DNA from: Candidatus Aenigmarchaeum subterraneum SCGC AAA011-O16
Lineage (GTDB): Archaea > Aenigmatarchaeota > Aenigmatarchaeia > Aenigmatarchaeales > Aenigmatarchaeaceae
Length of the DNA: 37,370 nt
Assembly (NCBI GenBank): GCA_000405245.1
Contig: ASMQ01000007.1
Location: 1 to 37,370, forward strand
Reading direction: 5' to 3'
This document shows, piece after piece, positions 23,973-25,592 of this stretch (position 1 is the stretch's first letter; each line of letters begins with the position of its first letter). The position numbers were made by a program, and so were the translations under genes. Under the pieces are notes generated by a model that had not been told where the DNA came from, ran no database searches, and saw nothing but the letters and a program-made list of their open reading frames with translations.

Positions 23973-25555
23973 ATTCCGGTTGATCCTGCCGGAGATCACT
24001 GCTATCAGGTTCCGACTAAGCCATGCGAGGCGTGAGCTATCTGGGCTCGCCGAACTGCTGAGTAACACGTAGTTAACCTGACCTCAAGTAGGGGATAATC
24101 TCGGGAAACTGAGGCTAATACCCTATAGTTGTGAAATGCTGGAATGCGTTCACAGCGAAATCTACGGAGCTTGAGGATGGGACTGCGACGTATCAGGTTG
24201 ATGCGAGTGTAAAGTACTCACATGCCTATAACGCGTAGGGGTTATGAGAGTAAAAGCCTCCAGATGCCTTCTGAGACATGAAGGCAGGTCCTACGGGACG
24301 CAGCAGGCGCGAAACCTTTCCAATTCGTTAGCGCGTGAGAAGGGGAGCTTGAGTGGTTATGCAATGCATAACCTTTTCTCTTGTCTAAAAAACAAGGGGA
24401 ATAAGTGGTGGGCAAGACGGGTGCCAGCCGCCGCGGTAATACCCGCGCCACGAGTGGTGATCTCGTTTATTGGGTCTAAAGAGAGCGTAGCCGGTCTGAC
24501 AAGTCTCTGGTGAAATCTGGCAGCTAACTGTCAGGCGTGCTGGAGATACTATCAGGCTTGGGAGCGGGAAAGGATGGAGGTATTCCACGGGTAGGAGTTA
24601 AATCCTTTAATCCGTGGAGGACCACCAGTGGCGAAGGCGTCCATCCGGAACGCGTCCGACGGTGAGGCTCGAAAGCGTGGGGAGCAAATGGGATTAGATA
24701 CCCCAGTAGTCCACGCTGTAAACGATGTCCCTTTGGTGTTGCATTCTCTACGGGAGACTGCAGTGCCGGAGCGTAGGTGTTAAAGGGACCACCTGGGGAG
24801 TACGGTCGCAAGACTGAAACTTAAGGGAATTGGCGGGGGAGCACACAAGGGGTGGAGGCTGCGGTTCAATTGGATTCAACGCCGGACACCTTACTCGCGC
24901 AGACAGCAGAATGAAGGTCAGCCTGACGGGTTTACCAGACAAGCTGAGAGGTATTGCATGGCCATCGTCAGCTCGTACCATGAGGCGTGCCGTTAAGTCG
25001 GTTAACGAGCGAGACCCACACCACCAGTTGCAATCACAATCCCAGGAGAAATCCAAAAGATTGTGAGCACTCTGGTAGGACCGCTGCTGCTAAAGCAGAG
25101 GAAGGAGTGGGCGACGGTAGGTCCGTATGGTCCGATTGCGCGAGGCTACACGCGGCCTACAATGGTTAGGACAATGTGATGCCACTCCGAAAGGAGGAGC
25201 TAATCACCTAAACCTAGCCCTAGTTCAGATTGAGGGCTGCAACTCGCCCTCATGAAGCTGGAATCCCTAGTAAGCGAACGTCATAATCGTTCGCTGAATA
25301 CGTCCCTGCTCTTTGCACACACCGCCTGTCAAGCCATGCGAGTAGATTTTTGGTGAGGCTTTTCCTCTTAGGAAAGTCGAGCCAAAGATTTGCGAGTGGG
25401 GCTAAGTCATAACAGGATGTGCAGCAATTCATTTTGTCTCAATGATTGAAGAAAAGGCGGATGGCTTTTGCCATAAACGAGGTGAAAAGAGAGATTTTTG
25501 CTGGCATTCTATGAGAAGGTAGCCCTACTGGAAGGTGGGGCTGGATCACCTCCTT
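23973..25555 (+). rRNA. rrs: 16S rRNA (archaeal) with one intron-like insertion
   Basis: The 5' end ATTCCGGTTGATCCTGCCGGA and the 3' end CTGGATCACCTCCTTA are both present. Conserved inner strings include GTGCCAGCCGCCGCGGTAAT, ATTAGATACCCCAGTAGTCC, AAACTTAAGGGAATTGGCGG and CACACCGCCTGTCA, and the archaeal signature is clear. Total length is about 1583 nt, about 100 nt more than usual; the excess is one block at 25414-25515. Helix 45 keeps the GGAA loop for dimethylation and CCTCC for Shine-Dalgarno pairing. No 23S or 5S gene follows; a protein gene on the other strand begins at once. Ends are accurate to a few bases. Confidence 0.97.
25414..25515 (+). other. 102-nt intron in 16S rRNA, between C1501 and A1502 (E. 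coli numbering)
   Basis: Within the universal AAGTCGTAACAAGGTAGCC region the gene reads AAGTCATAAC, then 102 extra nt, then AAGGTAGCC. A bulge-helix-bulge fits well. Exon CATA pairs with intron TATG as the central 4 bp, with bulges ACA and AGA. The intron ends GGATG/CATTC pair, and an inner CAGCAA/TTGCTG stem extends the helix. Cutting AC^A and AG^A joins the exons to the conserved sequence exactly. There is no ORF in the insertion. Confidence 0.8.
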
Positions 25556-25592
25556 AATATTTAATCTGTCACATTCCAAAACATTCCACACA

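Follow-up and report, generated by a model that had tools for sequence, protein, structure and literature searches.

A bulge-helix-bulge intron at position 1501 of an Aenigmatarchaeota 16S rRNA gene, with a C/D-like module complementary to its host rRNA

Introduction

Thirteen intron loci, spanning positions 374 to 1391, have been described in archaeal 16S rRNA genes (Jay and Inskeep 2015, PMC4496867). The introns at these loci, found in Thermoproteales, Desulfurococcales and Aigarchaeota, have a bulge-helix-bulge (BHB) motif at a conserved 16S site, interrupt "universal" primers, and include both small and LAGLIDADG-encoding versions. The intron described here resembles them in these features. 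It lies in the window, that is, the whole 37,370-nt stretch of DNA analyzed, which forms contig 7 of a genome of 429 kb and 42% completeness. It differs from the published introns in belonging to another phylum, Aenigmatarchaeota, and in its site, since no published locus falls at 1499 to 1502; moreover, most of the Aenigmatarchaeota introns contain a conserved module antisense to 16S, and nested introns occur. LAGLIDADG-bearing archaeal rRNA introns have counterparts in larger introns at or adjoining this site in three relatives, whereas the window intron has no open reading frame (ORF). The original prediction of the intron knew of no described archaeal intron at this exact site, and the site is indeed absent from the loci of PMC4496867 and from the literature searched. 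That search, limited to open-licence papers, returned nothing on 16S introns in Aenigmatarchaeota, on primer 1492R in connection with introns, or on C/D guides in rRNA introns; as far as we could find there, introns at the 1492R-site end of the archaeal 16S gene were not known before.

An intron-borne guide has a precedent in the archaeal tRNA-Trp intron, which harbors a box C/D guide RNA (D'Orval 2001; Singh 2004; both cited in PMC7994747). In both systems, a BHB intron also serves as an RNA of the C/D type directed against its own transcript. Here, in contrast, the host is 16S (and tRNA-Ser), the targets are the decoding center and the anti-Shine-Dalgarno sequence, and the boxes of the window intron are degenerate. 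Stand-alone C/D sRNAs have been predicted to target A1408 in Sulfolobus acidocaldarius and Nanoarchaeum equitans, and C/D sRNAs have also been discussed as rRNA chaperones (Dennis 2015, PMC4644070). The same base is the target of one version of the Aenigmatarchaeota module (family f22 and tRNA-Ser introns), with the difference that here the guide is carried by an intron. In bacteria, C1402 is 2'-O-methylated (PMC11542601).

Results

The 16S gene, on the forward strand like all window features given below, starts at 23973 and ends at about 25556. The archaeal small-subunit covariance model (Rfam RF01959) matches it with 1394 bits, the 3' end of the match being drawn into the insert, where it stops at 25437; the real 16S tail, GGATCACCTCCTTA, is at 25543 to 25556. 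Between GTCATAAC (C1501) and AAGGTAGCC (A1502; E. coli numbering) lie 102 extra nucleotides, 25414 to 25515, as had been predicted, and the continuity of the exons is borne out by relatives without an intron. Three of these (L065, L066, and L070) have an uninterrupted AAGTCATAACAAGGTAGCC, the very sequence expected after splicing in the window, and standard cuts in the window gene yield GTCATAACAAGGTAGCC, which is also theirs. Because the intron and exon 2 both start with A, the boundary is ambiguous by one base, and 25415 to 25516 would be possible by sequence alone. BHB motifs are cut after the second bulge base, here AC|A and AG|A, and this rule fixes the boundary at 25414 to 25515. Exon 1 (E. 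coli 1 to C1501), delimited by RF01959 and the intronless relatives, thus occupies 23973 to 25413, and exon 2 (A1502 to the 3' end, with helix 45 and the anti-Shine-Dalgarno), read from the sequence, occupies 25516 to 25556.

The predicted splice motif consists of a central helix in which CATA (25408 to 25411) pairs with TATG (25510 to 25513), flanked by the bulges ACA (25412 to 25414) and AGA (25514 to 25516). An exon helix (GGCTA, 25400 to 25404, with TAGCC, 25520 to 25524) lies on one side, and an intron-side helix (GGATG, 25415 to 25419, with CATTC, 25505 to 25509) followed by an inner stem (GCAGCAA, 25421 to 25427, with TTGCTGG, 25498 to 25504) lies on the other. The definition of a BHB is met: two 3-nt bulges on opposite strands are separated by a 4-bp helix, and the cuts rejoin the exons. 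The folded intron region is more stable than its shuffles (z = -2.5). Across ten introns, all 40 cells of the central helix are canonical, with both-side changes at two of the four pairs and the variants CATA/TATG, CGTA/TACG, and TGTA/TACA. Helix cells were counted on hand-segmented sequences, a procedure that leans towards structure; one row was wrongly placed in a MAFFT alignment of the introns, which was left out of the helix counts. Since the central helix covaries across ten introns, the insert goes beyond chance.

The alternatives to a small BHB intron were also considered at the level of sequence. An Rfam search of 25395 to 25530 gave no match up to E = 1, so that neither a group I catalytic core nor any other known RNA family was found there, and no LAGLIDADG ORF was found in the window intron, 102 nt leaving no room for one. 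Comparison confirms the insert as an archaeal BHB intron in 16S at S1501|1502, while its splicing is inferred, there being no RNA data. The boundaries, motif, and site of the original prediction are all supported, and independently confirmed by related genomes, a comparison that it had proposed.

The primer 1492R finds no target in the window at up to 3 mismatches, and the spliced sequence would retain two mismatches to it. The expectation that the intron would make the organism invisible to PCR surveys holds for 1492R on DNA; for PCR in general it was overstated, since other primer pairs are unaffected by the intron.

When 156 genomes of the phylum were scanned with a pattern, homologous introns of 104 to 121 nt turned up at the same site in relatives (G001, G002, G004, G006, G007, G009, G010, and G027), and hand reading added G012 (141 nt) and the second intron of G109 (36 nt). 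Same-site introns occur in families f1, f3, f4, f6, and f11. A second site, S1499|1500, lies two bases earlier and is used, with a GTCG/CGAC-type helix, in families f8, f10, f16, f17, f20, f27, f28, and f32; an Rfam scan of one S1499 intron gave chance matches only. Further introns were found near 1490 to 1495 (L082, L084, L087, L090, L093, and L100). Tiny introns of about 31 nt are present at about 1494|1495, between GCTAAG and TCGTAA, in L087, L090, L093, and L108. By manual count, 38 of 63 genomes with a readable 16S 3' end carry one or more introns in the stretch from about 1490 to 1502, and the 1490s/1499/1501 region of 16S is a phylum-wide intron hotspot in Aenigmatarchaeota. The original prediction had touched on neither this hotspot nor the intron module complementary to 16S. 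Both S1499 and S1501 introns are present in G109 (L048/L127) and G012 (L128). In these nested arrangements the S1499 intron interrupts the 5' strand of the S1501 BHB, from which we infer that it is removed first.

Outside the phylum, no insert of about 80 to 141 nt was seen at the site in 236 archaea, and when about 85,000 species genomes were scanned for inserts of about 80 to 115 nt, the real matches were confined to Aenigmatarchaeota. Six of eight loci from that scan (in Haloferax, Halorubrum, Tatumella, Noviherbaspirillum, Arthrobacter, and Streptomyces) were rejected as repeated 16S ends at contig ends. Two loci from the phylum scan, L047 and L058, were likewise discarded, being chance matches outside rRNA. 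A separate 16S insertion is frequent near E. coli 1362 (about 25286 in the window), in G001, G012, G017, G031, G036, G041, G047, and G057. It is not among the published loci (PMC4496867), and one example, L093, contains AATGGCTTGAC.

Larger introns at or adjoining the site encode LAGLIDADG_3 proteins in G090 (L085), G146 (L117), and G052 (L096), and homing therefore probably seeded the site. G138 (L113, 208 to 502, minus strand) has a group I intron in its archaeal 16S at about 1499 to 1500 (Rfam RF00028, 70 bits), occupying the site where its relatives have BHB introns. The splicing endonuclease is encoded in 55 of 59 relatives; it was not found in the window's own genome, which is only 42% complete. 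Fibrillarin is present in 59 of 59 genomes, the window's own included, and the window contains several tRNA genes whose length could accommodate introns.

The interior of the window intron has the layout of a C/D-like module. Its putative terminal stem pairs TCTC (25437 to 25440) with GAGA (25491 to 25494) and encloses, in order, a box C-like AATGATTG (25441 to 25448), a degenerate RUGAUGA whose position is conserved in relatives; antisense element 1, AGGCGG (25455 to 25460), complementary to CCGCCT at 25322 to 25327 (E. coli 1399 to 1404); an apical hairpin, ATGGC-TTTT-GCCAT (25461 to 25474), in place of a D'/C' loop; antisense element 2, GAGGTGA (25479 to 25485), complementary to the anti-Shine-Dalgarno TCACCTC at 25546 to 25552; and a box D-like AAGA (25487 to 25490), which is UUGA or AUGA in most relatives. 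The order of stem, AUGA-type box C, RGGCRG-type element, hairpin, RGGUGA, NNGA-type box D, and stem recurs in nine introns of families f1, f3, f4, and f6. All 32 cells of the terminal stem are canonical in eight hand-segmented introns, with all four pairs changing on both sides. The window intron does not satisfy the definition of canonical boxes (RUGAUGA and CUGA closing a k-turn stem), its boxes being AAUGAUUG and AAGA, nor that of a guide of at least 9 bp beside a D or D' box, its pairings being 6 and 7 bp. The module is missing from the S1501 introns of G076 and G109 (34 to 36 nt) and of G027, and some introns here are 31- to 50-nt hairpins without it.

Element 1 tracks 1399 to 1404 of its own host: CCGCCU is matched by AGGCGG in the window's genome (G000), G002, G009, and G012, CUGCCU by AGGCAG in G001, G004, and G007, and CUGCCC by GGGCAG in G006. 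G010 falls outside this common register, with GACAGGC matching 1401 to 1407. In S1499 introns, GAYGGGCR matches 1400 to 1407 and ends in G where the host has C1400 and in A where it has U1400, the LAGLIDADG intron of G052 being the exception. Over both intron groups, positions 1400 and 1404 give 54 cells, of which 52 are Watson-Crick; the permutation mean is 30, and none of 20,000 permutations did as well. The permutation overstates independence, the species being related; we count a minimum of two independent changes at position 1400 and one at position 1404. In a 16S tree, U1400 arises in separate places; the tree is distorted by other introns in its rows and was used only for this point. 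Position 1400 is normally a highly conserved P-site base. Within the rRNA, 1404 follows 1497 (U-A or C-G), and therefore rRNA, BHB, and module change together. At 25327 of the window, C1404 is U, compensated by A1497, and relatives have C or U at 1400.

Element 2, RGGUGA and mostly GGAGGUGA, has 6 to 9 nt complementary to the anti-Shine-Dalgarno in nine of nine introns. For the window intron alone, both matches occurred together in 1 of 2,000 shuffles (0.05%), with targets picked after the data had been seen. Its pairings extend over only 6 and 7 nt, and matches of that kind are common over a whole 16S; it is the comparison that lends significance.

Family f22 has the module as a canonical C/D RNA, reading GAUGAUA, guide AUGGCUUGACU, CUGA, AUGAUGA, guide GGAGGUGAA, and a D box such as UUGA. 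The f22 16S introns have 9 to 10 bp to 1405 to 1414 and 8 to 9 bp to the anti-Shine-Dalgarno, and both they and tRNA-Ser introns meet the full definition (all four boxes, C, D', C', and D, together with a guide to rRNA no shorter than 9 bp). The boxes could be read directly in L078, L080, and L136, the last with the same guide sequences. Modules of the f22 type are located near 1490 in G076, G081, and G037 (f19), at 1499 in G070 and G072, and in helix 45 insertions in G051, G073, G075, G080, and G082. In L138, L139, L140, L143, and L145, the C/D module sits in insertions inside helix 45 that adjoin the dimethyl-adenosine loop. The module is also present in tRNA-Ser(UGA) introns of f14 and f22, and a variant with an added CGGCGG, complementary to 1399 to 1403, occurs in tRNA introns of several families and in a tRNA-Ser-like gene of the window's genome (L129). 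Genes of the tRNA-Ser type whose introns contain a C/D-like RNA directed at 16S 1399 to 1413 comprise L129 (1430 to 1620; G000:C12), L130 to L136, L142, and L149 to L158. Copies of GGCTTGACTCTGA outside 16S were at one point taken for 23S rRNA, an assignment rejected when reading showed tRNA introns; in the tRNA loci as they stand before splicing, ARAGORN predicted no tRNA that extends across the module. Under the N+5 rule, A1408 is the base indicated by the f22 guide, C1402 by the S1499 element, and C1535 by the anti-Shine-Dalgarno guide; in S1499 introns, GGGC and the NUGA box lie a constant distance apart, one that points at C1402.

Discussion

The best explanation, which we hold with moderate confidence, is that the insert is a BHB intron whose module pairs with 16S 1399 to 1404 and with the anti-Shine-Dalgarno, holding both immature until the intron is removed. 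The BHB, the exon continuity, the relatives of the intron, and the way element 1 covaries with 16S can be read from the genomes; splicing, pairing in the cell, and the purpose of the module are inferred, without RNA evidence for either splicing or the module. The splicing endonuclease would cut the intron out and RtcB would join the exons, and a circular intron would probably be released, as inferred from known archaeal BHB splicing. In mature 16S, the pairing partners of 1399 to 1407 are the exon bases next to the intron. Such pairing would compete with the BHB, and the module therefore most likely holds the 1399 to 1407 strand and the 3' tail immature. By pairing with the 5' strand of upper helix 44 (1399 to 1404) and with the anti-Shine-Dalgarno of its own transcript, it would keep strand and tail in a splicing-competent, translation-inactive form until the intron leaves, freeing the exon strand for the BHB and keeping the unspliced subunit from initiating.

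It is conceivable, if unlikely, that the window intron is instead an active box C/D methylation guide, like that of the archaeal tRNA-Trp intron, its sRNP acting in cis or after excision to 2'-O-methylate 16S bases, which by the N+5 rule would be C1402 for S1499 introns, A1408 for the f22 and tRNA-Ser type, and C1535 for the anti-Shine-Dalgarno guide. The complete boxes and 9- to 10-bp guides of f22, the constant GGGC-NUGA spacing that points at C1402, which bacteria methylate (PMC11542601), the prediction of A1408 as a C/D target in two other archaea (PMC4644070), and the presence of fibrillarin all speak for such a role, and for f22 itself methylation is the natural reading, though not shown. 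In the window intron, however, both guides fall below the 9-bp cutoff of PMC4644070. Its D box is AAGA, its box C is degenerate, and a D' box is missing. We also know of no methylation in the anti-Shine-Dalgarno. With boxes so degenerate and pairings so short, we rank a pairing or chaperone role above methylation for this intron. Somewhat more doubtful still is that it is a plain, worn-down mobile intron without function, its complementarities incidental or mere remnants. Short ORF-less 16S introns are common in Thermoproteales (PMC4496867), the three LAGLIDADG_3 introns make the site a homing target, and the bare hairpins noted above get by without a module; against this, the drift seen elsewhere in the intron has spared the stem, the registers, and the antisense elements, element 1 changes along with the host 16S, and tRNA-Ser introns share the module in its canonical form.

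That the 102 nt are retained in mature rRNA, as an expansion segment at the helix 44/45 junction, cannot be excluded by RNA data, none existing, but is very improbable: the BHB covaries and the exons rejoin exactly, introns at slightly different sites (1499 and 1501) each have their own BHB, and retention would push the strands of the decoding center apart. An assembly or binning artifact comes to mind because the genome is a MAG and the same pattern was produced by contig-end duplications in six unrelated genomes; homologous introns in independent assemblies of relatives, including JAFCDY010000030.1 and JAHLMR010000010.1, leave it hardly any credence.

Beyond the holding role favored for the window intron, we tentatively suggest, at somewhat less than even confidence, that the phylum keeps a portable C/D-type RNA, carried by 16S introns at several sites in the decoding center and by introns of tRNA-Ser, whose pairing targets are helix 44 and the anti-Shine-Dalgarno of 16S. 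In 16S, the intron would act on its own rRNA, coupling its removal to folding or methylation of the decoding center and blocking translation by unspliced subunits. The nested 1499 and 1501 introns predict an obligatory order of splicing. The end of the archaeal 16S gene that hosts these introns contains the 1492R site, and their frequency in Aenigmatarchaeota biases full-length 16S surveys against the phylum. What the introns seem to carry are RNAs directed at rRNA that follow the sequence of the host's own 16S; this offers a direct way to test whether introns in archaeal rRNA can come to be useful. If this is true, these would be a rare case of rRNA introns with a job in ribosome making, extending the idea of the tRNA-Trp intron to rRNA.
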